64,000 nt of DNA from Zoogloea sp. GTDB taxonomy: Bacteria > Pseudomonadota > Gammaproteobacteria > Burkholderiales > Rhodocyclaceae. The stretch is taken from contig NZ_JAKLLN010000013.1 in NCBI RefSeq assembly GCF_023150065.1, positions 1 through 64,000 of the forward strand. The letters run 5' to 3'. The notes beneath the pieces are model-generated. The model was not told the DNA's origin and made no database searches. It was given only the letters and a program-made list of their open reading frames with translations. Both the position numbers and the translations under genes were made by a program. Shown in pieces: positions 24,992-52,285 of the stretch. Every line of letters starts with the position of its first letter. Position 1 is the first letter of the stretch.

Positions 24992-26268
24992 ACGGTACGC
25001 TGCGTCCTGGCGTCCAGCAGCTGCTGTTTGGTTGGGTGAACTTTGCGTTGACGGCGCCCGCCATCTACCTCTGGCTGGGCCTGCCATTGATCATGCGGCA
25101 ACAGGGTTGGTCGGGTACGGAGATCGGTGTCTTTCAACTCGCCGGTCTGCCCGCTGTGTTCAAGGCGCTGCTGGCGATTCCGGTGGAGCGCTGGCTGCTC
25201 CGGCGGCGCTCTGCCTTGTCGTCGGATCCAGCGTTCGACCCGTCGAACAGGGTCTTGGCCTGGCAGCGCTGGGCTTGGCTGACGGGCGGCGGCTTCACGC
25301 TGTGCCTGCTGGCTCTGGCGGCAGTGGGTGAGGATGCCGGCAAGGGAACGCTCTTTGCGCTGGCCCTGCTGGCGGCCCTGCTGTCCACCTGGGCCGACAT
25401 CCCGGTGCAGGCGCTGGCCATCGGGCTGCTGCCACCTCAGGCCCGGCCGCTGGCCGGCGGCATCCGCGCTGCGGCCACGTTTGCAGGTGCAGTCGTGGGC
25501 GGTGGCCTCATGCTGCTGCTCCAGCAGGCCAGGGGCTGGGCGCTTCCTTTCCTGATTCTGGCCGCAGCTGTGTCGAGCGCCTTGGTGATCGTCGCTGTGC
25601 TGGGCCGTGGATCCGCTCCATCGCCGCAGGCGATGTCTTCAGGGGCCGCCGTGTCGAGGCTGGCGCCCTGGCGTGTCTGGAGAGGCTTCTTTCAGCAGCC
25701 GGGGGCGCCGGCCTGGACGCTGCTGCTGGCCGGGCAGTTTCCTTTCGTCGCGGCCGCCTGGGTGTTCCTCAAACCGCTGCTGCTGGACCATGGACTGCCC
25801 GCTGCGCAGGTGGCGCTGGTCGCCGGTGTGGGGGGAGGGGCCTTGGGCGCTGGCGCCAGCCTCGCGGCAGGCTGGGTGCGGCGGGAGCGCCTGATGTCGA
25901 TGGCGTGGCTGTCGGCGTGGGCCAATGTGCTGGCCCTCGGGTTGTTTGCCGCTGTCCTGGGTTTTCAGCTTGGCGTGGAGGCGCGTTGGGGACTGTTGGC
26001 GGGCAGCGCCGCGCTGGCCCTGGCGATGGGGCTGGCGTCTTCGCTCGCCTTTGCCTTGATGATGGAGTTCTCTCGCGATGCCTGCCGGGCCACCGACTAC
26101 GGCCTGCAGGCCGGGCTGTTCGCGCTGAGCCGCGTGCTGGTGCCGCCCGTGGCGGGCCTGCTGCTTGACCGTTTTGGCGACGCGGCGATGTTGGGTGCAC
26201 TGGCGGCGCTCGCGCTGTGCACGGCGCTGGCCGGACGCCGTCTGCGGCAAGGAGCGTCCACGTCATGA
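24988..26268 (+). CDS. MFS transporter, RhtX/FptX-like
   Basis: A 426-residue protein with about twelve membrane helices and no ATPase. The opening (GVQQLLFGWVNFALTAPAIY ... LAGLPAVFKALLAIPVERWL) resembles the single-component RhtX/FptX siderophore transporters, with the conserved 'lysine in helix 2 followed by PVERW' layout. It may move the metallophore across the inner membrane; import is the family's known direction, export cannot be excluded. It overlaps both neighbours by ATGA. Confidence 0.82.
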   Translation: MNGTLRPGVQQLLFGWVNFALTAPAIYLWLGLPLIMRQQGWSGTEIGVFQLAGLPAVFKALLAIPVERWLLRRRSALSSDPAFDPSNRVLAWQRWAWLTGGGFTLCLLALAAVGEDAGKGTLFALALLAALLSTWADIPVQALAIGLLPPQARPLAGGIRAAATFAGAVVGGGLMLLLQQARGWALPFLILAAAVSSALVIVAVLGRGSAPSPQAMSSGAAVSRLAPWRVWRGFFQQPGAPAWTLLLAGQFPFVAAAWVFLKPLLLDHGLPAAQVALVAGVGGGALGAGASLAAGWVRRERLMSMAWLSAWANVLALGLFAAVLGFQLGVEARWGLLAGSAALALAMGLASSLAFALMMEFSRDACRATDYGLQAGLFALSRVLVPPVAGLLLDRFGDAAMLGALAALALCTALAGRRLRQGASTS

Positions 26269-27365
26269 CGAACAAGAGAGATGACGTGACGGTGGTCGCC
26301 GACCCGGCGGTACTGGTTGTCGGCGGCTATGGCGCGGTGGGGGGCGGCATCGTCCGCGCCCTGCTGCGCGACAGCCCCTGCCATGTGCTGGTCGCTGGAC
26401 GCAGCCTGGAGCGGGCTCGCGCGTTCTGCCAGGCCCATGGCCCTCGGACGACGGCGGTTGCCTTGCGTGATGAGGATTTCTCGCTGATCGAGGTGTTGCC
26501 GCACCGAATCACCGTGGTGGTCAACTGCGTCGAAGAAGCGAGCCTGCGAATCGCCCCGCAGTGCCAGGCCGCCGGCGTTCACTACGTCGACGTCTCGGCC
26601 ACGGCTTCGGTGCTGGATGCAGTGCAGACCCGATGGGCGCTGGGCGAAGGTCGGCGCTCCTGTGCGGTCCTGAGCGTCGGCGTCGCGCCGGGGCTCACCA
26701 ATCTGCTGGTGCGCCAAGCCTGCGACCACCTGGGGCCGCTGCGGCACGTGGACGTCACGGTGCTGCTGGGTGCAGGCGAGGTCCACGGCCTGGCCGCCAT
26801 CCGCTGGACGCTGGACCGTTTGGGCGCCGCGTTCACGCTCCAGACCCCAGCCGGTCCAAGAGCGGTTCGGGCCTTTGGCGATTCGCGGCCGGTGCGGCTC
26901 GCAGCGCCCTACGGCCGAAGAACCGCCTACCGCTTCGACTTCTCGGAGCAGCACACGCTGCCGCGTACCCTGGCTTTGCAGTCGGCCGCTGCCTGGCTGT
27001 GTTTCGATTCCCGGCTGGTGACGCAGGCCTTTGCCTGGATGGCGCGCCTGCGCGTTCGGCGGTGGCTGCCGCTGGACGGCTTGGCGAAGTCACTGGCCTG
27101 GGCGGCCGCGCATGCGCCGGTCGGCGGCAATGGATTCATGGTCCAGGTCGATGCCCTCAGCCAGGCTGGGGATCGCGCGAGTTGGGCCGTCGCCGGAGAG
27201 GGGGAGGCGGCATGCACGGCTGCGGTGGCCGCCTGGGTGGCTCGCACGCTGCTGGCTGGCCGTCTGACACCGGGCGCCCATCACATTGAGGAGGTGCTGA
27301 CGTTGGACGAGGCGTTGGCGGGTTGCGCGCCAGTCCTTCGGCGGGTGGGGTTCGACCCGATGTAG
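26265..27365 (+). CDS. Saccharopine-dehydrogenase-like NAD(P)-dependent oxidoreductase
   Basis: A 366-residue protein with an N-terminal Rossmann fold (VLVVGGYGAVGGGIVRALL near residue 17) and the central VNCVEEASLRIAPQCQAAGVHYVDVS segment typical of saccharopine-dehydrogenase NADP-binding proteins. Such folds make or break secondary amines between an amino acid and a keto acid. In a metallophore unit this could be the condensing reductase of an opine-type metallophore, but sequence alone does not show the substrates. It starts at 26265 inside the MFS stop (ATGA) and ends the operon. Confidence 0.8.
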   Translation: MTNKRDDVTVVADPAVLVVGGYGAVGGGIVRALLRDSPCHVLVAGRSLERARAFCQAHGPRTTAVALRDEDFSLIEVLPHRITVVVNCVEEASLRIAPQCQAAGVHYVDVSATASVLDAVQTRWALGEGRRSCAVLSVGVAPGLTNLLVRQACDHLGPLRHVDVTVLLGAGEVHGLAAIRWTLDRLGAAFTLQTPAGPRAVRAFGDSRPVRLAAPYGRRTAYRFDFSEQHTLPRTLALQSAAAWLCFDSRLVTQAFAWMARLRVRRWLPLDGLAKSLAWAAAHAPVGGNGFMVQVDALSQAGDRASWAVAGEGEAACTAAVAAWVARTLLAGRLTPGAHHIEEVLTLDEALAGCAPVLRRVGFDPM

Positions 27366-27438
27366 GCGCTTCTCGCCGACTTGACAAGGCTCGGATTCGC
27401 CTGGATTGACCGCGTGGCTGCGCTTTGTCGCGGGTGCC

Positions 27439-27939
27439 TCAGCCACGGTGTTGCGGACAGAATCGCCGCTCGAACCACTCGGTGAGCATGGCCTTGTCGT
27501 ACACCAGCGGATCGCCATCGGAGCGGACAAAGGCACTGCGAGACAGGTAGTCCATGTCCGAAACACGCTCCTGCTGTTCGGCGAGTACCTTGCCCTGAGC
27601 GTCCTTCCAGAGGTACTCGAGGTCCGCCCGCGGCCACGTGACACCGCGCATGATGCGCACATCGTACGTGCCAGGGCGCCACCACTCATGTCGGCCCGCC
27701 AGGTCGAGGTCGGTGATTCGGATGTCCAGCGTATGGCCCGCCGGCAGGCAGCGATCTCCCAGGGCCTGCAGGTGCCGCCTGATGGACTCAAGGTTGCGCT
27801 GGGAGCGCACGCCGTAGTCGCCCGCGTCGGCATAGTGCTCGGGATGGACGAACTGCACCCCGACGTCGGCTGCAGCAGGCGGCACGGGTGCCGACAAGGC
27901 TGCGACACAGCACAGCGCGCGGAACGTTCTGGTGGTCAT
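27439..27939 (-). CDS. DUF3016 secreted protein
   Basis: A 166-residue exported protein: leader RTFRALCCVAALSAPVPPAAA and then the DUF3016 body (VQFVHPEHYADAG, LDIRITDLDLAGRHEWW, two late Cys). The start at 27939 is chosen because it puts the leader at the very N-terminus; an in-frame start 48 bases upstream has no similarity. The function of DUF3016 is not known. It converges on the saccharopine-dehydrogenase-like gene and is divergent from DUF1173. Confidence 0.8.
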   Translation of the reverse strand: MTTRTFRALCCVAALSAPVPPAAADVGVQFVHPEHYADAGDYGVRSQRNLESIRRHLQALGDRCLPAGHTLDIRITDLDLAGRHEWWRPGTYDVRIMRGVTWPRADLEYLWKDAQGKVLAEQQERVSDMDYLSRSAFVRSDGDPLVYDKAMLTEWFERRFCPQHRG

Positions 27940-28097
27940 GGTGAACCCTCGTATTGCTACAAGGTATTCGACTCCGTAGACCTTCATCTGGTTGCACCGC
28001 GCACACGGGGGCTGACATCGAAATCGGGCCGATAGAGCAGTGATTTTGGATGGCGTTCCTGCCTTGCTGGCGGCACGATGGGCTTTTCGAGACCTCC

Positions 28098-29303
28098 ATG
28101 GACGCTCAGCGCTATTCCATCGCCGGACAGGTGTATGACGCTTTGGATCCTCGCTTGCAGGAGGTTCTGGCGCGCGTGCGCGAGGGGGTGGATCGGCCGC
28201 GTTGCCTGTGCGTGCCTGACGGTGTCGAGATGTACGTGGCGCGCCACCGGCAGTACGTCGTCAAGCGCATGCCGGGCACTGGTGGGCAGCATCATCCGCA
28301 GTGCCCGTCCTATGAGCCGGATGCCCAGCAGTCCGGGCTCGGCGAACTGATGGGGGAGGCCATCATCGAGACCCTGGCGGGCAGCGTCGAGTTGCGCGTG
28401 GATTTTCCGTGGGTGCGCGTCCTCGGACGGGGTGTCGCGCCGGGCGAGCCCCATGATCCGGGTGAGATCAACGTCCCGCGTCGCCGGATGAGCCTGCGCG
28501 CCTTGACGCACTTCCTTTTCGAACGGGCGGGCTTCAATCGCTGGTTGCCCGCCATGGCGGGCAAGCGCAACCAGGGTGTCATCTGCAAGCACTTGCTGGA
28601 GGCTGCGGCGGAGATGATCGTCAAGGGACAGCCGCTTTCTCAACGCCTTCATGTTCCCGAGCTCTTCAGCGAAGCTTCGAAAGCTGCGGCCGCCCAGCGC
28701 CGCCGCGATAAGCTCGCGGTCCTGCAACCTCGTGATGGCCATTCGCCGCTGGCGGTGGTTCTGGGCGAGTTCAAGACCTGCGAGGCGACAGCGTTCGGGC
28801 GTCGCGTGTGGATCAAGCACATGCCCGACGCGCCGCTGCTCATCGCCGACAAGACCTGGGAGCGCGCTCGGCGGGCCTATGCGGCGTACTTCGAGGTGCA
28901 GGACGCAGATGTGGGCTACCGGCCGCGCTTGGTGTTGACGGCCTTGATCCGTGCCAAACGTGAGCACGTCTATGAAGTGGATGCGTTGAGCTTGATGTTG
29001 ACGACCGAACACTGGATTCCGGTGGAGGGCGCGCACGAAATTGAACTCATCCACGCCCTGGTGGAACAACAGCGGCGTTTCATCAAGCCCTTGGGTTACG
29101 ACGCGAGGAGCACGGCGGGGTTTCCGAACGCACTGCTGACTGACACCGGCGCCGAGCCAGTCGCCCTTCACGTGGTCAGCGCGTTCGCCGAGGCAAAGGA
29201 ACGTGCGGCCAAAATGCAGGTGATTGCGCGGATATCGCCGCCGCCCTGGACCTGGTGGACCGATCAGCCGATGCCGACATTGCCTGCTTGTGCGGTGTGC
29301 TGA
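28098..29303 (+). CDS. DUF1173 family protein (integrative-element gene)
   Basis: A 401-residue protein of the DUF1173 family, found mainly on integrative elements and plasmids. The N-terminal part has a Cys/His pattern (RCLCVPDGVEMYVAR ... HHPQCPSYEP) consistent with a metal site; the middle carries the conserved MSLRALTHFLFERAGFNRW and GKRNQGVICKHLLEAA segments. No enzymatic role is established. I use the ATG at 28098; the ribosome binding site is weak. Its presence between two metallophore regions is one reason to see the window as element DNA with cargo. Confidence 0.85.
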   Translation: MDAQRYSIAGQVYDALDPRLQEVLARVREGVDRPRCLCVPDGVEMYVARHRQYVVKRMPGTGGQHHPQCPSYEPDAQQSGLGELMGEAIIETLAGSVELRVDFPWVRVLGRGVAPGEPHDPGEINVPRRRMSLRALTHFLFERAGFNRWLPAMAGKRNQGVICKHLLEAAAEMIVKGQPLSQRLHVPELFSEASKAAAAQRRRDKLAVLQPRDGHSPLAVVLGEFKTCEATAFGRRVWIKHMPDAPLLIADKTWERARRAYAAYFEVQDADVGYRPRLVLTALIRAKREHVYEVDALSLMLTTEHWIPVEGAHEIELIHALVEQQRRFIKPLGYDARSTAGFPNALLTDTGAEPVALHVVSAFAEAKERAAKMQVIARISPPPWTWWTDQPMPTLPACAVC

Positions 29304-29333
29304 ACACGGCGTCCTCCGAGGGAGGAAAAGTTC

Positions 29334-29376
29334 GGGTACGGTACCCTACCTTTGGAGGAAATCGGGTACCATACCC
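29334..29376. promoter_or_regulatory. Two phased palindromic operators upstream of the MerR-like gene
   Basis: GGGTACGGTACCC (29334-29346, perfect 6-1-6) and GGGTACCATACCC (29364-29376, 5-3-5) are centred 30 bases apart, about three helical turns, and end 25 bases before the regulator's ATG. Likely autoregulatory binding sites for the following gene product. Confidence 0.7.
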
Positions 29377-29401
29377 GACGTTGGCGAACTCTGTTGAAAG
29401 G

Positions 29402-29914
29402 ATGGCTATGCGACTGGTTCCGACCCCGGTGGCATCGAAGCTTACGGGCCTTTCGATAGAGAAGCTTCGCGAGTGGACCAGTCGACGTGCGCTGGTGCCG
29501 GCGGACGTGCGTCCGAAGACGAAAGGATCGCCTGCACAGTTCAGTTGGCAAACCATCCTCGTTCTTCGGCTGGCCGTGCTTCTTCGCGACCAGTTTGCTG
29601 TTGAGCTGCAGACGCATCAAGGCGCGTTCGCCCAGTTGCGCAAGGCACTGCGATCAACCTCTTTCATTGCGCTTTGGGGCCGGCGCTTGGCGTTGGCTCC
29701 CGGAGGCGCATGGTTCTTTCTGGATGATGGGTCGCTGCCGTCCGAAGCCGATGCCATCGTTGTTCGTCTCGATCCGCACCTTGCTGTCCTGCGGGACGGT
29801 TTTGCCTTGCCTGATGTGGCTGCTGGTCAACTCGATCTTTTCTCCTTGCCTGCCACGCGCGATACCCCGACGGTCAAGGCGGTGAGTCGCCCCCGCCAGA
29901 GGAGGTCGGCATGA
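29402..29914 (+). CDS. MerR-like helix-turn-helix regulator of the methyltransferase-nuclease system
   Basis: A 170-residue protein whose start reads VASKLTGLSIEKLREWTSRR, the opening of a MerR-type winged helix that recognises DNA. The rest is not like classic MerR sensor domains and has no metal-binding Cys. GAAAGG precedes the ATG at 29402 (a second ATG two codons later is possible). Two palindromes lie directly upstream, so it probably controls its own operon. The methyltransferase begins 63 bases after its stop. A role as the controller protein of a restriction-modification-like unit is inference from context. Confidence 0.72.
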   Translation: MAMRLVPTPVASKLTGLSIEKLREWTSRRALVPADVRPKTKGSPAQFSWQTILVLRLAVLLRDQFAVELQTHQGAFAQLRKALRSTSFIALWGRRLALAPGGAWFFLDDGSLPSEADAIVVRLDPHLAVLRDGFALPDVAAGQLDLFSLPATRDTPTVKAVSRPRQRRSA

Positions 29915-29977
29915 GCCGCCAAGCTTGGAGCGTCGCAGTGCGTGGTAGGCACGGTTTGATGCGCAGAGGGGTGTAGC

Positions 29978-32900
29978 GTGGCGGGCGCAGTGCTGAAGCA
30001 GTGGCTGGACAGGCTCGGCTATGCCGCCGAGCCTGCGGCGCTTCACGTCCGCGGTGCGGCGATCTCCGAAGCGCACCCTTATGCGTTGGAGATCAAGTCG
30101 CTGCTCAAGCCGGACGGGGCCGTTCGGGCTCAGGCGGTCTTCGTGGTGGAAGGCGTGCCAACCGTTGTCTTCATGGCGGATGACCAGCCTTTGTCGGCTT
30201 CTGCGCTCGACGATGTCCGCAAACGCATTTGGAATCAGAACCTGGCAACGGTGGTGATCGAGCTGCGCGACCGCGAAGCGGTTGCGCTTCCGGTACGAAA
30301 GCTCCAGAAGGCTGAGCAGCGTTTCAGTTTGCAAGAAGCCAGGCCGGATGGTCCGTTTTCCGCCCTCGACGTCGCCACTGCGAATCTGTCGCGAAGGCTG
30401 CCGGCTTGGTTCGACGTCAAGGCTCGGGTGGACAGCAAGCTGCTTGCGAACTTGTCGGTGACAGTGTCGAAACTTGCGGGTACTGGTTTTCGTGGCGCTG
30501 CAAAGACCAGTGACCGCAAGCGATGGGCAGAGCTGCTCATGGGGCAGGTGCTCTTCATCTCCTATCTGGAGCATCGGGAGATTGTTGGAGTGACCTATCG
30601 CGGGCGTCGCGATGTCGGTGAGCTTCATGACCTCGTTGCGCGAATGGACCGCGAGGGCGTGCGCGTGCTGGTCGATCGTCTGCGCGGAGATTTCAATGGC
30701 GATTTCCTGGGCGACGACCGGCACGATCCCTGGACCGCCCTCACAGATGACGGATTCGATTTTCTGAACCAGTTTCTGCGCCGAACCGACATGGAGACGG
30801 GGCAGGGCGATTTCTGGAATTACGATTTCAGCTACATCCCCGTCGAATTGCTCTCCGGTCTCTATGAGAAGTTTCTGACGCCAGAGCAGCAGGCCAAAGA
30901 TGGCGCCTACTACACGCCCCGCAACCTGGCAATGCTGGCGGTTGAACAGGCGCTCATGGCCTCGCCCGATCCGCTGGCGGAGACGATTTTTGATGGAGCC
31001 TGCGGTTCAGGCATCCTGCTGACCACAGCCTATCGTCGCCTGATTGCACTGTGCGAGGCGCGGCAGGGGCGGCAACTCGGATTCGCCGAGCGGGGTGAGC
31101 TCCTCAAGCGCAGCATCTTTGGCGGCGACATCAATTTCATGGCGTGCCGCGTGACGGCCTTCAGCCTGTACCTATCCCTCCTTGAGGGGCTGGCCCCAGC
31201 GGACATCTTGGCGGCACAGGAGCGCGATGGAACGAAGCTGCCCTCCCTCAATGGGAGCAACCTCGCCCATGGCAGCCAACGGGCCGACTTCTTCCGGACT
31301 TCCCACACGTTCCACACGCGCCGTTTTTCATTGGTCATCTCCAATCCTCCCTGGGCAGAACCTGAGGGCGAGAGCCGAACGTCGGCGGATGACTGGGCGG
31401 ATCGCGCTGGTGTTCCTTTTGCACGGCGGCAGATCGCCGGTGCCTACGCGCTGCGCGCGCTTGAATTTCTCTCGGAAGGCGGTAGAGCTTGCCTGATCCT
31501 TCCCATCGGCCAATTTCTTGGCGCCTCCAGCGCGGACTTTGTCGCTCACCTTCTCAAGGGATACCGACCGTCGCGCCTGATCAACTTTGGCGATCTGCAG
31601 GGGCTGCTGTTTCCTACGGCTGAAAACACGTGCCATATCTTCCTGGGGGAGAGACGTCCGGATGGTTTGTTGAGTCACATTCCGTTTGGGGAGACGTTCG
31701 ACTATTTGGTGCCGAAAGCCGACCTTAGTCTTGCCCTCGGTCGGTTGACCATGCAGTCCGCCGATCGCCACACGCTGCAGACCCGCTCGGTTGCCGAGGA
31801 TCCACAACTGCTTGTCGCCATGATGTGGGGAGATGCCAGTGACCTGTCCATCTGGACGCGGTTGACCTTGCGCGGTACGTTTGCCGATTTCTGGCGTGGG
31901 CCCCGCGAGTTTCGGCGCTGGGTATATCGAAAGGGGATCCATCTCCATGACAAGAGCCGTGAGGCTGTCGATCCCGGCGAGCTGCGCAAGATGCCATTCG
32001 TGCCCATTGTGGCGCTGCGTGCGGGATCGCCTGTTCTTCATCCCGAACTGCTAGCCAAGTGGCCTGAGGCTCAGGACACGGTCGTGGGTTTGAACGAAGG
32101 GGTGCGTGCCGTTTTCGATGGACCGCGAGTGCTTTTTCCGGATGGTTTCTCCAAGGGTGAGCAGAACATTCGCGCGGTCTACTACGATGGGCAGGCCTCC
32201 TTCACCCACAGCATCGGTGTGATCGCTGGCCGCGAGGAGGACGCTGCCCTGCTTCAGTTCACTGCGGCGTATCTGCGCTCGACGCTCGCCCGCTACTTTC
32301 TCATGATGCGTGGCTGGAAGATGCTGTGCGAACGCAACGGCGTGCATCTGGCTGACGTCGAAACCTTCCCGTTCTTTGTGCCAGAGGATGCGCCGGATCC
32401 GGCGGCGGCACGGGACGCGCTCTTGGCGGTTCAGGCTCGCATGGCGGAACTGATGGCCTTGCCCGAACTTGAGCAAGCATCCCGCTACGACGAGTTGCGT
32501 GACGAGTTTGACGCGGCGGTTTTTTCCTATTTCGGACTCTCCGGTGAAGAGCAGACGCTGATCCGTGAATCGGTTCGCGTCCTCATGCCCTCTGTGCGGC
32601 CGCGCAGTTTCAAAAGTTTGGATACCCCAGCTCAGCATAGGGCCAGCGCCGAGGACTTCGGCATCTATGCGCAGGCACTCGCCAATGCCTTGACTGCGTG
32701 GAGAACGAAGGCACGCGGCCAAGGCCGATTCCGTGTCGATGTGGTTGCGAACGATCCGAGTCGCGCTGGGCCGTCAGGCATCGTGCGGATTTCGTATCTG
32801 GGAGATTCCACTGACAGGCCCGAGGTCAGCGCGTCGATGAATGACGAGTTGGTGCTTGCGACACTCGCCGAGTTGAGAAAAGCGGGGCTTTGCGCGATTC

Positions 32901-33082
32901 CATCGGGAGACTTCCTCTGCCTGGTGCCGGATGTGCATCTCTGGGTTGATGGCGCGCTGTACCTTGTGCGGCCGCTAACCAAGCGCAACTGGACAGTGCG
33001 AAAGGCTCTTCGAGATGCCGAGCATATCGTCCGTGGTGTGCAAGTGCGCCAATCCGTCGAGAAGGGGGAGGCGACGGCATGA
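29978..33082 (+). CDS. Large N6-adenine DNA methyltransferase (restriction-modification-like)
   Basis: A 1034-residue protein. Residues ~1-110 read like a compact alpha/beta region (PYALEIKSLLKPDGAVRAQA, then TVVIELRDREAVALPV) reminiscent of nuclease-like N-termini of type IIG enzymes, but I see no secure catalytic site. The methyltransferase core has AYYTPRNLAMLAVEQALM, motif I DGACGSG near residue 338 and motif IV SNPPW near 456, the adenine-N6 signature. The C-terminal half (from ~600) looks like a target-recognition region (KMPFVPIVALR, RYFLMMRGWKMLCERNGVHL, a pattern shared with Eco57I-like enzymes). The GTG start has GAGGGG 7 bases upstream. The stop overlaps the next gene (ATGA). Confidence 0.85.
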   Translation: MAGAVLKQWLDRLGYAAEPAALHVRGAAISEAHPYALEIKSLLKPDGAVRAQAVFVVEGVPTVVFMADDQPLSASALDDVRKRIWNQNLATVVIELRDREAVALPVRKLQKAEQRFSLQEARPDGPFSALDVATANLSRRLPAWFDVKARVDSKLLANLSVTVSKLAGTGFRGAAKTSDRKRWAELLMGQVLFISYLEHREIVGVTYRGRRDVGELHDLVARMDREGVRVLVDRLRGDFNGDFLGDDRHDPWTALTDDGFDFLNQFLRRTDMETGQGDFWNYDFSYIPVELLSGLYEKFLTPEQQAKDGAYYTPRNLAMLAVEQALMASPDPLAETIFDGACGSGILLTTAYRRLIALCEARQGRQLGFAERGELLKRSIFGGDINFMACRVTAFSLYLSLLEGLAPADILAAQERDGTKLPSLNGSNLAHGSQRADFFRTSHTFHTRRFSLVISNPPWAEPEGESRTSADDWADRAGVPFARRQIAGAYALRALEFLSEGGRACLILPIGQFLGASSADFVAHLLKGYRPSRLINFGDLQGLLFPTAENTCHIFLGERRPDGLLSHIPFGETFDYLVPKADLSLALGRLTMQSADRHTLQTRSVAEDPQLLVAMMWGDASDLSIWTRLTLRGTFADFWRGPREFRRWVYRKGIHLHDKSREAVDPGELRKMPFVPIVALRAGSPVLHPELLAKWPEAQDTVVGLNEGVRAVFDGPRVLFPDGFSKGEQNIRAVYYDGQASFTHSIGVIAGREEDAALLQFTAAYLRSTLARYFLMMRGWKMLCERNGVHLADVETFPFFVPEDAPDPAAARDALLAVQARMAELMALPELEQASRYDELRDEFDAAVFSYFGLSGEEQTLIRESVRVLMPSVRPRSFKSLDTPAQHRASAEDFGIYAQALANALTAWRTKARGQGRFRVDVVANDPSRAGPSGIVRISYLGDSTDRPEVSASMNDELVLATLAELRKAGLCAIPSGDFLCLVPDVHLWVDGALYLVRPLTKRNWTVRKALRDAEHIVRGVQVRQSVEKGEATA

Positions 33083-33786
33083 TGTCTCCAGTCGACTGGT
33101 TTGCTGCCTTTCCGATCCAGCCGGCCACGGAGGCCGTGGAGGCGCTGCGTCAGGGCTGGACAGAATTGGCGGGACGGCCGCGCCCGGATTTCAATCCCAA
33201 GACGAAGGAAGATGGGCTGACCAAACGGCTGAAGGTGTACGTTGAGAACCACGTCGCACGGGAACGCGGCTTGCTCGGTATGTGGGCTGCCGAAGACATC
33301 ATCGGGGACGTTGATCCGAACACTGGCGCGATGCTTGAGGAGCGTCGGACCGATATTGTCTACGGCTGGAACGATGACGTCCGCGGCATGAAGCTGGTCT
33401 TCGAGTTCAAACGCCTGGGTCGCCAGAAGAAACACCGTGACCACTATCTACAAGACCAGGGATTGGGGCGATTCGTCACGGGCATCTATAGCAGAAAGGA
33501 GGCCGTTGCGGCCATGGTGGGAGTTCTGCTGGATCCGGAGCCTGAGGTGGTGCCACCCATCAGGGAGGCACTCCAGGACGCTGCGCTTGCCACGTTTCTG
33601 CGTTTGCGGCGCTTGCCTTCGGGCCTCCCTTATGCCCGGCCTTCTGCGATGTTCACGGGGGCGGATTTCGATACGGAACACGAGCGGGATGCCGCGCTTG
33701 CACCCACGCACGGGACGATTCGCGTATCTCATTTCTTCTTCGCATTCGGCTATCCGACTACCACTCGGAAGCAGAAATCCGCATAG
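33079..33786 (+). CDS. Putative PD-(D/E)XK-type nuclease, partner of the methyltransferase
   Basis: A 235-residue protein I do not recognise by name. It contains ERRTDIVYGWNDDVRG and then KLVFEFKRLG (residues ~88-113), which reads as the Asp...Glu-x-Lys core of PD-(D/E)XK nucleases. Upstream, TKRLKVYVENHVARERG fits the helix before such cores. It starts inside the methyltransferase stop codon (33079-33082), so the two are made together. It is likely the cutting component of the system; that is inference. Confidence 0.68.
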   Translation: MMSPVDWFAAFPIQPATEAVEALRQGWTELAGRPRPDFNPKTKEDGLTKRLKVYVENHVARERGLLGMWAAEDIIGDVDPNTGAMLEERRTDIVYGWNDDVRGMKLVFEFKRLGRQKKHRDHYLQDQGLGRFVTGIYSRKEAVAAMVGVLLDPEPEVVPPIREALQDAALATFLRLRRLPSGLPYARPSAMFTGADFDTEHERDAALAPTHGTIRVSHFFFAFGYPTTTRKQKSA

Positions 33787-33805
33787 GAGCCCATTGCCAG
33801 CTGGA

Positions 33806-34786
33806 TCATCGGCCGCGCCGTCTGGCCTCTCCCGGATTGACGCCGAACTGCTTGCGAAATGCCGCTGAGAAGTGGCTCATGTTCGAGTAGCCCAGATCGC
33901 ACGCCACTGCCGACACACTGGTATCGTCCCTCAGCAGGCGGCGCCGCGCCTCGTTCATGCGCTCATGCTGGAACAGGCCGTACACACTGAAGCCGTACAG
34001 CGCGCGAAACCCGCGCTTCAGTTTCGCCGGGCTCAGCCCGTTCTCGCGCGCCACATCCAGGATCAGCGGAGGCTGCGACAGATCGGACAGGAGATGCGCG
34101 CGCGCACGGGCCAGACGCATTTGATCTGCTCGGTCCAATGCGCCTGTGCCACCTATATCCGCCCGCGCCTCCAAAAGCAGGCTCACCAGCGTCAGTCCTT
34201 GTGCCTGCAGCCACAAGGGGTGCCGGTCCCCTGACGATTCGCCGTCGCCCGGACGGTACCGCATCGCGTGCGCCAATGCTTGGGCCGTGGCATGCAATTC
34301 CGTGCCGCGGAGCCCGGTCTCAAAACACAGTCCATTTGATAGCGCACGACGCAGCGTCGGTTCGGCGTCGCCCATCAGTTCCTCGAATGCGTCATGTCGC
34401 ACCATGACGCCAACGCTCTCATAGACACCGTGCTGGTGAAATCGCCAGCACTGATCGGGGCCAAAAGCGATGTTGCCACTGGCCGCGTGAACCTGACGCT
34501 CGTCGATCCGCCGGCCGACACCTTGCCCCTTCATGCCGTTCAGCACCGCGAGGGATTCGCCCAGCAATACGTAGCTGAAATGGATGAACCCGCTGTCATC
34601 GAGCACGCTGAGATCGATCGGGTTGGCCAGACGCGTGGACCAGTGCATCAGCTGCACGCCCTCTCGCGTCGCCACCCGCCGATGACTGGACGTAACAAGG
34701 TCCAGCCCCAAGGCTTCGCTGGGGTCTCTGATCATCTCCGTGGCCAGGAGATGGGGTATCGAAGTAGCTGCGTTGGCCCTGGGCAT
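33806..34786 (-). CDS. AraC-family transcription regulator (PchR/YbtA-like)
   Basis: A 326-residue regulator: N-terminal sensing region (to ~230), then the C-terminal DNA-binding domain (ILDVARENGLSPAKLKRGFR, then VSAVACDLGYSNMSHFSAAF, ending FGVNPGEARR). This form is typical of activators that bind a ferric siderophore, such as PchR and YbtA. I chose the ATG at 34786 because GAGGAA lies ~11 bases upstream and longer in-frame starts read into the divergent promoter. It faces the region D operon across an AT-richer gap with a Fur-box-like site. Confidence 0.87.
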   Translation of the reverse strand: MPRANAATSIPHLLATEMIRDPSEALGLDLVTSSHRRVATREGVQLMHWSTRLANPIDLSVLDDSGFIHFSYVLLGESLAVLNGMKGQGVGRRIDERQVHAASGNIAFGPDQCWRFHQHGVYESVGVMVRHDAFEELMGDAEPTLRRALSNGLCFETGLRGTELHATAQALAHAMRYRPGDGESSGDRHPLWLQAQGLTLVSLLLEARADIGGTGALDRADQMRLARARAHLLSDLSQPPLILDVARENGLSPAKLKRGFRALYGFSVYGLFQHERMNEARRRLLRDDTSVSAVACDLGYSNMSHFSAAFRKQFGVNPGEARRRGR

Positions 34787-34855
34787 CACTGCATCGCTTC
34801 CTCTTGCCTCCGTTGATCCGATGCGGGCAGCAATGAGCCCGTTCCGGGTGGCAAT

Positions 34856-34874
34856 CGTAATACGAATCATTATT
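34856..34874. promoter_or_regulatory. Fur-box-like site between divergent AraC and methyltransferase genes
   Basis: CGTAATACGAATCATTATT agrees with the 19-base Fur consensus at 13 of 19 positions and stands out in GC-rich surroundings. It lies ~97 bases before the methyltransferase start and 70 bases before the AraC start. Confidence 0.65.
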
Positions 34875-34970
34875 ATTGAACAGGGTTGTAACTTTTCCTT
34901 GCGTGGGTCCGAGGGGCTGGGCGTTTGCTTTTGCACCACCACGGATCCATCGAATTCCCTTGATCGACTC

Positions 34971-35816
34971 ATGTCCCAAGCACCGCTCAATCCCGTTTCC
35001 GCAGTTGATGCCACGCCGGTGCTATGCGGCGTACCGCAGACCATGTTGTGGACGCTGCACAACCGCGCCACCGAATCCCTGCGGCCCGATGCTTGGTTTC
35101 GTGATCCGGCGGCCGAGCGCATCTTCCAGTCCATCGCTTTTGACTACCGGGCCCATTTCGGCCGTCCCGACAGTTCGCACGCCACCCGCTCGCAGATGTT
35201 CGACGAGGCGCTGCGTCCGTGGCTCGCCGCGCATCCCGGCGGCACGGTGGTCGAACTCGGTTGCGGGCTGGAGACGCAGTTCCAGCGCTGCGACGATGGA
35301 CGGGTGCGCTGGTTGTGTGTGGATGTGCCGGACGCGATTGCCGTGCGCGAGCGCTACCTGGCACCCAGCGAGCGATGCCGCCATGTTGTGCGCTCCGCGC
35401 TCGACTTGAGCTGGATGGATGAGGTCGAGGCGAGCAACGGTGTCTTCGTCACCGCCCAGGGCCTGTTCATGTATTTCCCCGAAGACGAGGTTGGGTACCT
35501 GATCTCGGCGATGGCGAGGCGCTTCAAAGGGGGCGAACTCATGTTCGACACCATTCCGCGCTGGTTCTCGCGCAAGACGATGGCCGGGCTCGATATCACG
35601 AGCCACTACCGCGCCCCGCCCATGCCCTGGGGTATCAATCGCGACGAAATCGAGACCGTGCTGAGGGCATGGTGCCCACACATCGACTCGGTGCAGAACG
35701 AGCCCTACCGCCGTTTCAGAACCTTCCCTGCGCGGCTGGGCCCCTGGATAGCGCACATACCGGTGCTCGCCAAACTCCTTCCCGCGATCGTGCGCGTGCG
35801 CTTCGCTCGGGAATGA
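34971..35816 (+). CDS. SAM-dependent methyltransferase (leucine carboxyl methyltransferase-like)
   Basis: A 281-residue protein of the LCMT/Ppm1-like class. AWFRDPAAERIFQSI, the SAM-binding VVELGCGLETQFQR near residue 92, the acidic VDVPDAI and the AQGLFMYFPEDEV segment match small-molecule methyltransferases in polyketide and siderophore loci. ATG at 34971 is chosen because the family resemblance starts just after it. It leads the region D operon, 60 bases before the receptor. Its fold differs from the region B methyltransferase. Substrate unknown; modification of an imported or made metallophore is possible. Confidence 0.82.
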   Translation: MSQAPLNPVSAVDATPVLCGVPQTMLWTLHNRATESLRPDAWFRDPAAERIFQSIAFDYRAHFGRPDSSHATRSQMFDEALRPWLAAHPGGTVVELGCGLETQFQRCDDGRVRWLCVDVPDAIAVRERYLAPSERCRHVVRSALDLSWMDEVEASNGVFVTAQGLFMYFPEDEVGYLISAMARRFKGGELMFDTIPRWFSRKTMAGLDITSHYRAPPMPWGINRDEIETVLRAWCPHIDSVQNEPYRRFRTFPARLGPWIAHIPVLAKLLPAIVRVRFARE

Positions 35817-35876
35817 CCGCCCTCTGGCGTCCTCCACAAGCTCCTCTTCGTCCATGCCCGCTCCCCATCTTTCCTC

Positions 35877-38228
35877 ATGACACCCTTCCAAGCCCGCCCG
35901 AACAAAGCCCACCGCATCTCAGCACTTGTCGCACTCGCATCGATCCATTGGACCTGCCTGGCCGCCGAGCTGCCCTTCGACATTCCAACCCAGCCGCTCG
36001 AGGCCGCGCTGAAGCTGTTCGAAGCACAGGCCGGCGTTCCGGTTCAGCGTCCGCTGCAGTGGCCCCAAGGGCTGGCTGAAACCCCGGCCGCTGCACTGAG
36101 CGGCCGCTTCGAGCCAGTGCGGGCGCTGCATCGCCTGCTTGCGGGACACCCCCTCCAGATCGCGGAACACGATGGACGCTTCGTGATCGCGGTGGTCGAG
36201 CAAGCCCAGCCCGCCACCGAGCCGGACAAGACCTTGCCCGCGGTGACGGTCACTGCCCGGCGCGGTGCCGAGCGCGCCAAGGACGTTCCGTTCAGCGTCA
36301 GCACGGTTCAGGGGTTCGAGCTGGAGCAGCGGCGCCTCACCACGCTCGAAGAAGCCCTGCGCGACACCCCTGGCGTGGAGGTCAATGCCTGGGGCGGCTT
36401 CGGCGATGCCAACGTGCGCATGCGCGGCGTGGGGTCGCTGTACCAGGTGAGCAGCGAGGACAGTTCGGTTGTCGTCAATCTGGACGGTACACCGCTGTCG
36501 GCGCGCAACGCTTCGCTGCCCATGCTGGACGTGGAACGCGTCGAGGTGCTCAAGGGGCCGCAGGGCACGCTCTTCGGCCGCAACAGCGAAGCCGGCGCCA
36601 TCAACATCGTCACGCGCAAGCCTACCCGCGAACCCGATGGCTATGCGCGCGTCGAGGCCGGGCAGGAGGGGCAGCGGCTGATCGAGGGCGCCATGGGCGG
36701 TGCGCTCGCCGAGGATTGGAGCGCGCGCATCGCGCTGCGCAGCCAGCAGTCGGACGACGTGGTCCATAACGTCCAGACCGGCAAGCCGATCATGAAGGCC
36801 AAGGAACTCGGCCTGCGCGCCAGCGTGCTGTGGCAGCCGCGGGCCGCGACATCTGTGCTGCTGTCCACCGAGCACCAGGACCAGAAGGACAAGGTCGGCC
36901 TGATGCTGCTGCGGCCTTATGGCGATCCGCCCAGCCTGGACGCGACGCCCGGCCTTTTCGGTGCTGACGTGAAGAGCCACCGGCACGCGCTGGAAATCAA
37001 TCACGACCTGGCGAGCGCAAGGCTGACGTCTCATACCTCATTCCAGCAGCGCCGCGAAGATCAGACCTCGGGGGCCGACCGCATAGTGGCGGCCACCGTG
37101 TTCGGGATGCCCACCGAGTACCTCAAGCAATATCGCCGCGACGAATCCGCGTGGAACCAGGACCTGCGCCTGTCCTCGCTGCCCGGAGCCGCGACGTTCT
37201 GGGTGGCGGGCGTCAATCTGTACGGCTCCAAGCGCGAGTACGACACCACGGTCGGTGGGATGACCGACAACCTGCGCGACTTCGAGACGCGCAGCGAGGC
37301 GGCCTATGGGGAAGTCACGGTGCCGCTCGCGGCCGCGCTGAAACTCACCGGCGGTCTGCGCTACACGCAGGAGCGCAAGAAATACGACGCCAGCTTCGTC
37401 ACCACCGGCTATCCGGCTACTCAGGACAGCCGCTCGCTCGACGACCGGTACGCGACCGGGCGAGTGGCGCTGTCCTGGGCGCTGAACCCCCAGACCAACC
37501 TCTACGGCGTGCTTGCCCACGGACACAAGGCCAAGGGTTTCCAGGACGAGACCTCGCAGGTTGCCGACGGCGATCCCTTCAAGGCCGCCAAGGTCGACAG
37601 CCTGGAACTGGGCATGAAGTTCGAAAGTGCGGACCGCCGTCTCGCATGGACCACCGCCGCCTTCTTCAACCGGGTGCGCGACGATCACATGCTGGGCTAC
37701 GACTACACCACCTTCGCGACCAAGGCGATCAACGCCGATACGCGAACCCGGGGCCTGGAGGTCGAAGGCCAGTGGCGGGCGGCGCCCGGTCTCACCCTCA
37801 AGGGCGGCGCCGTCTACACGGATGCCACCATCACCCGGTCGGTAACGGGCGTGTCCGGCGGAGACGTGGCCACCGGCAACCGCGTGCCGGACGTGCCGCG
37901 CTGGAGCGGCAAGCTCTCCGTCAATTACACCCGGCCGCTGCCCGGTTTCATGGGGCTGGCCTCGCCGCAGCTCACAACGCTGCTGGCCTACCGGGTCATG
38001 AGCACGCGTGCCAACGATCCGCAGAACCACATCTTCCTGCCGTGCTTCCAGAAGATCGACGCGCGTGTCGGCATCGCCTCGGGCGCCGGCGAACTCTATC
38101 TGTGGGTGGACAACCTGCAGGACAAGCGTTACGACCAGTACGTCTACTACTTCACCCCGAATGCCAATGTGGGCATGCCGACGCGCGGCCGGACCGTGGG
38201 GCTGGGTTTCACCTGGCAGTTCTTCTGA
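35877..38228 (+). CDS. TonB-dependent receptor with N-terminal STN (secretin/TonB) signalling domain
   Basis: A 783-residue outer-membrane receptor. A leader is followed by an STN domain (LPFDIPTQPLEAALKLFEAQ to about residue 105), a plug with VERVEVLKGPQGTLFGRNSE and INIVTRKP, and a barrel ending in GLGFTWQFF. STN domains usually signal through a FecR-type anti-sigma partner, yet no fecI/fecR genes lie nearby and the adjacent regulator is AraC type. The plug wording again resembles FyuA-like receptors. The CDF gene starts inside its stop (ATGA at 38228). Confidence 0.92.
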   Translation: MTPFQARPNKAHRISALVALASIHWTCLAAELPFDIPTQPLEAALKLFEAQAGVPVQRPLQWPQGLAETPAAALSGRFEPVRALHRLLAGHPLQIAEHDGRFVIAVVEQAQPATEPDKTLPAVTVTARRGAERAKDVPFSVSTVQGFELEQRRLTTLEEALRDTPGVEVNAWGGFGDANVRMRGVGSLYQVSSEDSSVVVNLDGTPLSARNASLPMLDVERVEVLKGPQGTLFGRNSEAGAINIVTRKPTREPDGYARVEAGQEGQRLIEGAMGGALAEDWSARIALRSQQSDDVVHNVQTGKPIMKAKELGLRASVLWQPRAATSVLLSTEHQDQKDKVGLMLLRPYGDPPSLDATPGLFGADVKSHRHALEINHDLASARLTSHTSFQQRREDQTSGADRIVAATVFGMPTEYLKQYRRDESAWNQDLRLSSLPGAATFWVAGVNLYGSKREYDTTVGGMTDNLRDFETRSEAAYGEVTVPLAAALKLTGGLRYTQERKKYDASFVTTGYPATQDSRSLDDRYATGRVALSWALNPQTNLYGVLAHGHKAKGFQDETSQVADGDPFKAAKVDSLELGMKFESADRRLAWTTAAFFNRVRDDHMLGYDYTTFATKAINADTRTRGLEVEGQWRAAPGLTLKGGAVYTDATITRSVTGVSGGDVATGNRVPDVPRWSGKLSVNYTRPLPGFMGLASPQLTTLLAYRVMSTRANDPQNHIFLPCFQKIDARVGIASGAGELYLWVDNLQDKRYDQYVYYFTPNANVGMPTRGRTVGLGFTWQFF

Positions 38229-39235
38229 TGTGCGACGCCATCATGAGTTCTCTGCCCGTGGCGTCCCGAACCTGCCCGCAAGCCGATGCCTTGGCGCACG
38301 CCCATGACTTCGGTCAGGAGGGGATACGCCCGGCCGAGCGCCGGGTCAGCATGGTGGCCATGCTGACCGTCGCGGTGATGGGCCTGGAGATCGCCGCCGG
38401 GTGGTGGACGGGCTCCATGGCGCTGCTGGCCGACGGGGTGCACATGGGGGGACACGCCGTTGCACTGGGCCTTGCGGCTGGCGCCTATGCCATGTCGCGG
38501 CGCTACGCCCGTGACCGGCGCCTGAGCCTGGGAAGCGGCAAGATCAACGATCTGGCGGCCCACACCAGCGCCCTGATCCTGGCTGTATCCACGGTGTGGA
38601 CCGCCATCGAGTCAGCGCAGCGCCTGCTGAGTCCCGAACCGCTGCGCCCGACGGAAGCCCTGGTCGTGGCCGTGCTGGGGTTGGCGGTGAACCTGCTGTC
38701 CGCTTGGCTCTTGGGCGGTGCGCACGATCATGAACACGACCACGGACACGGACACGACGATCCTCGCGACCACCCCGGCCACGTGCATGACCACAACCTC
38801 GGTGCCGCACTGGCGCATGTGCTTGCCGATGCCGTCACGTCGGTGGCCGCCATCGCCGGTCTGCTCGCCGCCTGGGGCTGGACTTGGCTGGATCCACTGA
38901 TTGCGCTGCTGGCACTGGGCGTGGTGGCGCGCTGGGCCGTCCGACTGCTGCGCCAGACCGGCGCGGTGCTGCTCGATGCCGAAGGTCCCGCCGAACTGCG
39001 GCGCCAGGTGAGCGCCCGGCTCGAAGCGGTGGCCGGCAGCCGCGTGACCGATCTGCACCTGTGGTCGGTGGGCCAGGGCGCCTGGACGCTCGCAGCCTCG
39101 GTGGTCAGTCACGGCCCGGCCGCCACCGAGGTGTACAAGGCCGCGCTCGCCGGCCTGCCCGGCATCCATCACCCGATGGTCGAGATCCATGCCTGCCGCC
39201 ACTGCCAGAGTTCCCATGGAGCGGAGTTGCCATGA
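38228..39235 (+). CDS. dmeF: Cation diffusion facilitator (DmeF-like) metal exporter
   Basis: A 335-residue inner-membrane cation/proton antiporter of the DmeF type (Co/Ni/Zn). The N-terminus HAHDFGQEG, helix II LLADGVHMGGH and helix V HVLADAVTS carry the metal-site His/Asp pairs; between helices IV and V is a His-rich loop (HDHEHDHGHGHDD, residues ~170-190). The C-terminal cytoplasmic domain (VTDLHLWSVGQGAWTLAASV) is intact. It sits inside a siderophore-transport operon, ATGA-coupled on both sides, which suggests the imported ligand may bring metals other than iron. Confidence 0.88.
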   Translation: MCDAIMSSLPVASRTCPQADALAHAHDFGQEGIRPAERRVSMVAMLTVAVMGLEIAAGWWTGSMALLADGVHMGGHAVALGLAAGAYAMSRRYARDRRLSLGSGKINDLAAHTSALILAVSTVWTAIESAQRLLSPEPLRPTEALVVAVLGLAVNLLSAWLLGGAHDHEHDHGHGHDDPRDHPGHVHDHNLGAALAHVLADAVTSVAAIAGLLAAWGWTWLDPLIALLALGVVARWAVRLLRQTGAVLLDAEGPAELRRQVSARLEAVAGSRVTDLHLWSVGQGAWTLAASVVSHGPAATEVYKAALAGLPGIHHPMVEIHACRHCQSSHGAELP

Positions 39236-40503
39236 CCGAGTTTGCGACGACGACACGCCTGCGCACCCCGGCCGGCACCTGGTGGCTGCTGGGCAGTCTC
39301 TACACCACCCAGTTCCTCGCGCTCGGCTTTCTGTCGGTGGCACTGGTTGCGCTGCTGCAGGAGCAGGGTGCCTCCATGTCGCGCGTGAGCCTGATCTATC
39401 TGCTCGGCACGGTCTGGGCCTTCAAGCTCCTGTGGGCGCCGCTGCTGGATCATTTCGGCTGGACCCGGCTGGGCCACTACCGCGGCTGGCTGCTGCTCAC
39501 TCAGGCCGGGCTGGTGCTCGCGCCGCTGGCCATGATGGCGCTCGATCCGGTCGTGGACTTTCCCGCCGTCTATGCGCTGGCCGTGCTCGTCGCCGTGCTG
39601 TCGGCGACGCAGGATGTGGCCACCGACGCCATTGCCTGCCGCACGCTGCCCGAGACCGAACGCGGTTTGGGCAATGGCATCCAGACGGCAGGCGGCCTGC
39701 TGGGGAATCTGCTCGGCGGCGGGGTGTTGGTGATGGCCTACCCGAGCATCGGCTGGAGCGCGTGCATGGGGTGGCTCGCCGCGGGCACGGCCGTATCGCT
39801 CGCACAGCTCGCCTGGCTGAGCGAGCCCGGGCAGCGCCTGACGCCGCTCGCAGCGCGCACCTTGTACGGCCGCTTGCGCACGTTCTGGCCCGATGCCGGG
39901 GGCATCGGCTGGCTGTTCGTGCTGCTCCTGTTTCCCTTCGCGTCGGGACTGGCCTATGGCCTGGTGACGCCGTTGCTGGTGGCGTCAGGCTGGGGCATGG
40001 AGCGCATCGGCCTGGTCACCAACGTTGCCGGTTCGCTGCTCTCGGCGGGCTCGGCGCTGGCGGCCGGCTGGCTGCTGCCACGCTGGGGGCGGCGGCGCGC
40101 ACTGGTCATGGCCGCGGCCATCAATCTCTTCGGCAGTGCGGCGCTGCTGGCCCCCTGGGCCGGCTGGGGCGGCGTTGGCGGGAGCGACGCTGCCCTGACG
40201 CTGGCCGTGTGCCTCTACTTCCTGTGCTACACGCCGCTGCACGTGGTGCTCGCCACGCTGATGATGGACCGTGTCCACCCCGCCAGCGCAGGAACCGACT
40301 ACAGCCTGCAGTTCAGCGTGTTCATGCTGTCCAGCATGGGCTCGGCCACGCTGGCGCCGCTGCTGACCGACGCGCTGGGCATGCGCGACACGCTGCTCGT
40401 CGGCGCCGTCGCCGCCCTCGCGTCGGTGGTGCTGGCTTGGCGCCCCCGCCTGTCGACCCCGCCGGCTCCCGCAACGGCTCCTACACCGGCCCGTCCGTCA
40501 TGA
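39232..40503 (+). CDS. MFS transporter, RhtX/FptX family
   Basis: A 423-residue, ~12-helix transporter. The segments TQFLALGFLSVALVALLQE, LGTVWAFKLLWAPLLDHFGW and LSATQDVATDAIACRTLPET are the family's typical form (the DxATD motif in helix 4-5). RhtX/FptX proteins import rhizobactin and pyochelin across the inner membrane. Coupled by ATGA to the CDF gene and to the ABC gene. Confidence 0.87.
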   Translation: MTEFATTTRLRTPAGTWWLLGSLYTTQFLALGFLSVALVALLQEQGASMSRVSLIYLLGTVWAFKLLWAPLLDHFGWTRLGHYRGWLLLTQAGLVLAPLAMMALDPVVDFPAVYALAVLVAVLSATQDVATDAIACRTLPETERGLGNGIQTAGGLLGNLLGGGVLVMAYPSIGWSACMGWLAAGTAVSLAQLAWLSEPGQRLTPLAARTLYGRLRTFWPDAGGIGWLFVLLLFPFASGLAYGLVTPLLVASGWGMERIGLVTNVAGSLLSAGSALAAGWLLPRWGRRRALVMAAAINLFGSAALLAPWAGWGGVGGSDAALTLAVCLYFLCYTPLHVVLATLMMDRVHPASAGTDYSLQFSVFMLSSMGSATLAPLLTDALGMRDTLLVGAVAALASVVLAWRPRLSTPPAPATAPTPARPS

Positions 40504-52279: not shown

Positions 52280-52285
52280 GGTCAA

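Follow-up and report, generated by a model that had tools for sequence, protein, structure and literature searches.

A conserved mobile cassette pairing a Type IIG-family adenine methyltransferase with a separate nuclease-like protein

We describe a three-gene module in a 64,000-nucleotide stretch of DNA from Zoogloea sp. (positions 1 to 64,000 of contig NZ_JAKLLN010000013.1, RefSeq assembly GCF_023150065.1; hereafter 'the window'). Two operator-like dyads included, the module runs from 29,334 to 33,786, with all its features on the + strand, and encodes a helix-turn-helix (HTH) regulator, a large adenine methyltransferase and a small PD-(D/E)XK-like protein. The genes of the last two share an ATGA overlap (33079-33082), and the open reading frames agree with an earlier sequence-only reading of this DNA, which had described three compact genes with the last two overlapping. 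The module, present as a single copy in the host genome, is real, conserved and mobile, and most probably represents a variant of an already known type of restriction-modification system. Its methyltransferase carries a Type IIG label in the PADLOC catalogue, a label that hides the likely nuclease, which is encoded by a gene of its own and belongs to a family without a name. The sequence-only reading had proposed an undescribed system; the separate likely nuclease supports this in part, but the methyltransferase already falls within a catalogued Type IIG model, and through that model homologues are partly named as type II or IIG, which that reading held would count against it.

The methyltransferase and its small partner

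The methyltransferase gene (29978..33082) starts with GTG and encodes 1034 amino acids (aa). Its product is an adenine-N6 DNA methyltransferase, as the earlier reading had it, matching Pfam N6_Mtase (E 1.9e-14) and Eco57I (E 9.1e-12) as well as PADLOC PDLC03623, 'Type IIG restriction enzyme-methyltransferase' (E 7e-246, 816.7 bits, residues 4-1023). With this last match, the N-terminus and recognition region are not wholly unassigned, as the earlier reading had claimed. Such a PADLOC label is a catalogue name, and models of this kind rest largely on REBASE predictions. Alignments place motif I (FDGACGSG) at residues 338-345 (30989..31012) and motif IV (NPPW) at residues 456-459 (31343..31354); DGACGSG and NPPW are kept in diverse relatives, with NAPW in one plasmid locus (L051). 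The target-recognition region, at approximately residues 627-745 (31856..32212), was mapped onto the window by eye through the family alignment, from homology to a block exchanged between two relatives (L090 and L091; see below). An N-terminal domain of about residues 1-125 (29978..30352) lacks a conserved D...E-x-K, and no conserved acidic-x-lysine or D...E-x-K motif was found in the first 140 residues of 23 close and 9 diverse members. From its sequence, the large protein would seem to be an active methyltransferase that has no nuclease of its own.

Structure prediction adds some detail, the AlphaFold2 models being built from 23-row alignments. In a Foldseek search with the low-confidence methyltransferase model (mean predicted local distance difference test score, pLDDT, 59.9), BrxX was the top match, with MmeI and BpuSI also among the matches. 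The N-terminal order of helices and strands, in this model and by eye, could fit a worn PD-(D/E)XK fold, and our guess is that the domain may be a worn-out nuclease domain. No support for a dead PD-(D/E)XK domain came from a Pfam scan of nine methyltransferase N-termini, nor from hhalign comparison of the domain with four HSDR_N-type sequences (five such loci were found, and L124 was left out).

The small protein (235 aa, 33079..33786) is a predicted PD-(D/E)XK-like nuclease subunit. Its presumed catalytic residues D92 (33352-33354), E109 (33403-33405) and K111 (33409-33411), together spanning 33352..33411, are invariant in a 13-sequence alignment (A4; 19-86% identity to the window protein), in line with the small PD-(D/E)XK-like partner proposed earlier. 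Further residues invariant in the same sequences are W7, W27, E44, T48, Y123, F132, Y137, M146, G148, H201 and H218, and more distant family members retain D...E-x-K by eye. No Pfam, PADLOC or NCBIfam model matches the protein at E <= 1 and no PHROG at E <= 0.1, while the sequences of solved structures give nothing better than E 0.39. Likewise, 13 diverse members gave three chance-level Pfam matches, one member each (best E 0.068), and a profile of 13 members found nothing of substance among PDB sequences, the best match (E 0.023) being a protein A chain. The AlphaFold2 model comprises a helix at 44-62, strands at 75-78, 85-98 and 103-112, a helix at 118-127, and strands at 131-134 and 144-151, with D92 and E109/K111 on neighbouring strands (low confidence, mean pLDDT 50.3); this predicted order is consistent with a PD-(D/E)XK fold but does not prove it. 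Moreover, the gene is under purifying selection, with 21 synonymous against 1 non-synonymous differences from the window summed over three close relatives (L001, L002 and L005), and neither kind of difference in a fourth (L003). Taken on its sequence, this protein appears to be an active PD-(D/E)XK nuclease. Plasmid records H1 and H3-H14 annotate the region matched by the nuclease as 'Fis family transcriptional regulator', which is probably a propagated error; a role as transcription factor was dropped, as the invariant D...E-x-K speaks against it.

Linkage, distribution and mobility

That the genes form one unit beyond chance is borne out by 33 loci found in genome contigs through the small protein, in 30 of which the methyltransferase adjoins and in 26 the regulator too. 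Four loci have no detected regulator: L004 and L017, which contig ends cut, and L012 and L028, which genuinely give no match. Loci L031-L033 hold a partial nuclease only and no methyltransferase match. For counts less biased by how loci were found, genome samples were searched with PDLC03623, which located the methyltransferase in 5 of 398 genomes in a phylum sample (E <= 1e-30), 10 of 385 in the class of genome G155 (E <= 1e-15) and 13 of 376 in its order (E <= 1e-20). The three samples overlap, G155 being found in all of them, and yield 26 distinct genomes, among which are the near-identical copies L115/L116, L118/L119 and L120/L121; the nuclease gene adjoins the methyltransferase in every one (26/26). 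Two of the methyltransferases (L089 and L092) each lie in two reading frames. Conversely, the nuclease profile A4 detected 9 of the 385 genomes, all within the 10 that carry the methyltransferase, and the tenth (G446) has a more distant nuclease copy (E 6e-7); the narrow profile A1 found 2 of 398 genomes only. In plasmid and genome relatives whose methyltransferases share 23-42% identity, the order of methyltransferase followed by a small protein of about 210-260 aa is kept. The gene preceding the methyltransferase is the least constant, being HTH-like, of several kinds, in 12 of 23 loci and not in 11 (by eye).

As the sequence-only reading had suggested looking for, the same genes recur on mobile elements, and this conserved mobile module sits on plasmids, sometimes beside defence genes. 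The 28 plasmid records with a related methyltransferase comprise 13 conjugative, 3 mobilisable and 12 non-mobilisable plasmids. Neighbours include Thoeris ThsA and ThsB (L097), PDC-S06 (L049), an LmuB-like ATPase (L051), a SoFic-like Fic protein (L048) and a TIR protein (L047); these six defence neighbours were picked by eye from annotation, which precludes an enrichment test. Because known or predicted defence genes adjoin some plasmid copies, a restriction role for the module is likely on genomic context. On the Burkholderia glumae plasmid p22s3p (L096:4109-8298), the methyltransferase is split into 548-aa and 448-aa genes with a 4-nt overlap, followed by the nuclease, which looks like a natural arrangement of modification (M) plus specificity (S) subunits of the same system. 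The IncP plasmid pRSB223 (L040) carries a nuclease of 40% identity together with a related methyltransferase whose annotation divides it into two reading frames, and this system adjoins class 1 integron resistance genes. Among 11 viral contigs with a related methyltransferase (L057 and L059 being the same contigs as L038 and L039), 7 also have the nuclease, and phage records gave no methyltransferase match at E <= 1e-15. In two viral contigs, a smaller protein encoded directly before the large methyltransferase (L063:4569-5318 and L065:5156-5842) resembles, by eye, a second, Dam-like adenine methyltransferase.

The DNA itself delimits the module. In L006, L007, L009 and L010, similarity to the window is confined to 29328-33782, beginning at the dyads and ending with the stop codon of the nuclease gene; in L008, L011 and L013, it forms two pieces, both inside that interval, and in L038 it begins at 29997. 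Because similarity in several unrelated loci spans only about 29.33-33.78 kb, the module is, on DNA comparison, a self-contained mobile cassette, and the conserved interval 29328-33782 contains no further gene. At another scale, collinearity with the window extends through the entire 15-16.7 kb fetched, at 94-100% DNA identity, in L001, L002, L003 and L005 (Acidovorax, Roseateles, Zoogloea and Thauera), and a shorter Thauera locus (L004) is collinear over 6.9 kb. Judged by this identity, a larger element containing the cassette has recently spread among these four genera.

Recognition-region exchanges and competing readings

In the mechanism we propose, the regulator would bind the two dyads and set expression of the operon. 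The large protein, by analogy with its family, would use its own target-recognition region to read a sequence and methylate adenine N6 there, and this methylation would protect host DNA. The small PD-(D/E)XK-like protein may dock on the methyltransferase and, once docked, would cut DNA with unmethylated sites without an ATP motor. Both catalysts would thereby serve one recognition domain, as in a Type IIG enzyme in two pieces with the nuclease acting in trans. That the module is a restriction-modification system is very probable when this reading is taken jointly with the Type II and Type IIG readings below; within that, we lean towards a motor-less system, related to Type IIG but split, in which the methyltransferase aims a nuclease that acts in trans.

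The cassette probably works like Type IIG enzymes, in which, according to a section of PMC4081073, cleavage and methylation domains occupy a single chain and are both harnessed to one specificity module. With these enzymes (BpuSI, MmeI; PADLOC REase_MTase_IIG, PDLC03623/PDLC03603) it shares a gamma-class adenine methyltransferase equipped with a recognition region of its own, a full-length match to PDLC03623 and a recognition block that is exchangeable in relatives; it differs in that the likely nuclease is encoded apart, by a conserved gene, and the N-terminal domain has no nuclease motif. Because the single-chain feature fails, a separate nuclease-like gene being present in 26/26 genomes, we do not file the cassette as Type IIG. 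The motor of Type I systems is likewise lacking, as the partner has 235 aa and no helicase or other model match, and no HsdR motor gene lies inside 29328-33782. In Haloferax volcanii (HVO_A0006/HVO_A0237), a passage of PMC4389544 proposes that a PD-(D/E)XK protein completes a nuclease-less Type IIG-like methyltransferase. The separate PD-(D/E)XK protein is a common trait, but the Haloferax genes are proposed there to be pieces of a disrupted Type IIG gene that lie apart, whereas the cassette is an operon maintained across many genera, its nuclease gene following that of the methyltransferase.

Two natural exchanges bear on how cleavage is aimed. The first involves two alphaproteobacterial genomes (L090 and L091). 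Between their methyltransferases, identity is 97% across 360 residues, drops to 50% within a block of 115 residues and returns to 90% across the 277 that follow; DNA identity falls from above 90% to 42% and then climbs again. Their nucleases are 88% identical overall and 95% over residues 1-150. The second concerns a group of methyltransferases of about 957 aa with two recognition types, represented by six sequences (L114, L115, L118, L120, L097 and L093) after the near-duplicates L116, L119 and L121 had been removed before counting. Here, trees of the core and of the recognition region reject each other (approximately unbiased (AU) test, p 0.0016 and 2e-5). Nuclease identity follows core identity (rho 0.73, a value reached by 15 of 720 label permutations) and not recognition-region identity (rho 0.09; 256 of 720), and the most similar nucleases (L118/L120, 76.5%) belong to different recognition types. 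These comparisons suggest that in two groups the recognition region was exchanged and a similar partner nuclease retained, although both cases have weak points.

Several observations weigh against a nuclease aimed in trans. In the first exchange, nuclease residues 151-216 (the last 66) are only 74% identical, and synonymous divergence (dS) there is 1.36, against 0.49 in the first part of the nuclease and 0.32-0.34 in the methyltransferase flanks; this higher value suggests that the nuclease end has a separate history too. In the second, the nuclease tree is poorly supported (35-54), rejects neither topology and pairs L120 with L093, of the same recognition type, at support 54, while the core data reject the nuclease tree (p 4e-5). 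A further candidate, L095, has diverged too far to be scored as an exchange, with 78 and 68% identity in the flanks, 49-56% in the block and 70-71% in the nuclease. Across the whole family (820 pairs, minus those with missing regions), nuclease identity tracks the recognition region (0.84) as well as the core (0.83) and follows every methyltransferase part about equally (0.78-0.84, the recognition region highest), as is expected from common descent. No nuclease was found in 4 of the 11 viral contigs (L060, L065, L066 and L067), of which L066 ends inside the methyltransferase and L067 is a weak match. The two structure models are of low quality (mean pLDDT 50.3 and 59.9), a Foldseek search with the nuclease model matched no solved structure at E <= 0.001, and the nuclease profile resembles HsdR-type domains weakly (best P 0.0024 of 20 comparisons). 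Further exchange partners were sought for L090 in viral contigs, yielding none, for L086, yielding one distant sequence on an already known contig, and in 40 genomes of the order of G688, yielding none besides G688 itself.

A classical two-enzyme Type II system, such as AhdI ('Type IIH'), in which the small protein would be an independent restriction endonuclease reading the same sequence and the methyltransferase would only protect, is in our estimate rather unlikely. It would account for the separate restriction and modification genes, the small PD-(D/E)XK-like protein, and the HTH regulator and tandem palindromes, which resemble controller-protein systems; AhdI likewise has a controller protein, a separate small endonuclease and a gamma-class, Type I-related methyltransferase. 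The differing nuclease end of the first exchange and the whole-family tracking of the recognition region also favour it, and AhdI joins a Type IIP-like endonuclease to a gamma-class methyltransferase (PMC4081073, in the part concerned). On the other hand, nuclease identity does not follow the recognition region within either exchange group. Moreover, one homologous nuclease family serves methyltransferases with recognition regions down to 13% identity, unlike Type II endonucleases, which are mostly unrelated to one another. The cassette further departs from AhdI in that M and S are fused in a single 1034-aa chain (with the two-gene form in L096), whereas M.AhdI has separate M and S subunits (sections of PMC3874165 and PMC4081073), and the nuclease of the cassette seems not to follow the recognition region, in contrast to the Type IIP-like AhdI endonuclease.

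Clearly less probable is a conditional effector akin to BREX or MADS, in which the methyltransferase would survey DNA and the nuclease be released upon disturbed methylation or by a phage inhibitor. The defence genes adjoining some copies would fit, as would the weak similarity of this large adenine methyltransferase to PglX/BrxX, its top Foldseek match, and to MAD2, its best NCBIfam match; PglX proteins were formerly listed as Type IIG (PMC12707154, in a passage on them). However, NCBIfam scores fall far under the family cut-offs (30.5 against 720; 20.7 against 900), BREX models reach at most 20.7 bits on the cassette against cut-offs of 400-900, and neither a brx gene nor other BREX or MADS partner genes form part of the conserved cassette. 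That the methyltransferase is a true Type IIG enzyme whose nuclease resides in the N-terminal domain, the small protein being an accessory factor, is very improbable: the PADLOC label and the low-confidence helix and strand order suit it, but the D...E-x-K motif is conserved nowhere in residues 1-140 of the 9 diverse and 23 close members and is invariant in the small protein instead. Least probable of all is a small protein that is no nuclease (a DNA-binding or anti-restriction partner, for example) in a system acting by methylation alone, for although neither family model nor structure directly supports nuclease activity, the invariant D and E-x-K and the PD-(D/E)XK-like, low-confidence predicted topology speak against it.

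More broadly, and as a tentative proposal, the trans-acting arrangement may represent a widespread restriction-modification class now filed under Type IIG, with a small stand-alone nuclease as trans subunit, aimed by the interchangeable recognition domain of the methyltransferase. Such a class would be a living representative of the motor-less stage that links Type I systems with fused Type IIG enzymes; its specificity would change by cassette swap, and its regulation would use HTH-operator modules that can be exchanged. Portions of Bower et al. (PMC6158711) discuss how Type IIG enzymes evolved out of Type I systems through nuclease fusion; there, fusions of the HsdR nuclease domain to HsdM were not restriction-active and many natural attempts were supposed to have preceded one success. 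Among the full-text search matches listed, mostly titles and abstract openings, no description of a methyltransferase paired with a separate nuclease was found. If the proposal is true, the catalogued methyltransferases that pass for complete Type IIG enzymes would depend on a second gene for restriction, and defence catalogues therefore miss a component; the stable unfused form, with its natural recognition-domain exchanges, would also offer a natural test of Type IIG origin.

Regulation and genomic surroundings

The regulator gene (29408..29914) has a reading frame also open from 29255 and 29402. Its start at 29402, as given by the sequence-only reading, is possible, but relatives begin at a (M/V)RLV residue, which corresponds to 29408; similarly, an HTH regulator is present as stated, but its MerR likeness is weak (MerR_1, E 0.0047, under the cut-off). 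Upstream lie two 13-bp dyads of the form GGGTA-N3-TACCC, at 29334..29346 (GGGTAcggTACCC) and, 30 bp further on, at 29364..29376 (GGGTAccaTACCC). Allowing one mismatch, they are the sole matches in the window, and as 5 of 100 shuffles reach the same count, the case for them rests on conservation. The pair, with 28-31 bp spacing and at least 8 of 10 positions in each dyad, recurs in 27 of 31 loci, where 300 shuffles of each locus predict 0.00 (0.25 if 7 of 10 positions suffice); these loci are related, so that the 27 are not independent events. It is missing in L012 and L028, which also have no regulator match, in L038, where another HTH gene replaces the MerR-like one (by eye), and in L024, which has the regulator and a single imperfect dyad; three of the four dyad-less loci thus have no MerR-like gene or a replacement. 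A sigma-70-like promoter was not found in a scan of 29200-34000.

Similar regulators keep the dyad (9-10 of 10 positions) in L047, L052, L090 and L091, though the methyltransferases are distant, with a second, weaker dyad (7-8 of 10) 28 bp further on in L090 and L091 only. Where the regulator is built differently (L048, L049, L054, L062 and L087), the best dyad scores upstream of it are 7-8 of 10 and fall in other palindromes. Since similar regulators retain the dyads and differently built ones do not, regulator and operator seem, from these comparisons, to move as a pair and to be swapped from one system to another. In L048, L054 and L062, a second HTH subtype has a different palindrome-like sequence, G-rich/C-rich, just upstream (by eye), perhaps a different regulator-operator pair. 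An HTH regulator with predicted tandem palindromic sites upstream of its own gene is a controller-type feature, and the protein may regulate its own expression at these putative operators. Classical controller proteins belong to the XRE-type C-protein family, of which this regulator is not a member, having only the weak MerR-like match in the window; some relatives carry other HTH types (by eye).

A DUF1173 gene lies directly upstream of the cassette. To its left are a saccharopine-dehydrogenase-like gene and an O-methyltransferase gene, and to its right AraC-type, LCM-methyltransferase and TonB-receptor genes, with a second TonB receptor in the window at 2067-4259. These flanking genes may be metallophore cargo; the earlier description of an insert between element genes and such cargo fits, except that genes of this kind occur on both sides. 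The collinear stretch, at 25055-41788 in the window, bears TonB-receptor, AraC-type and methyltransferase genes. Elsewhere in the window, 50714-52285 on the - strand encodes a 523-aa Fic/DOC family protein (Pfam PF02661, E 2.1e-10).

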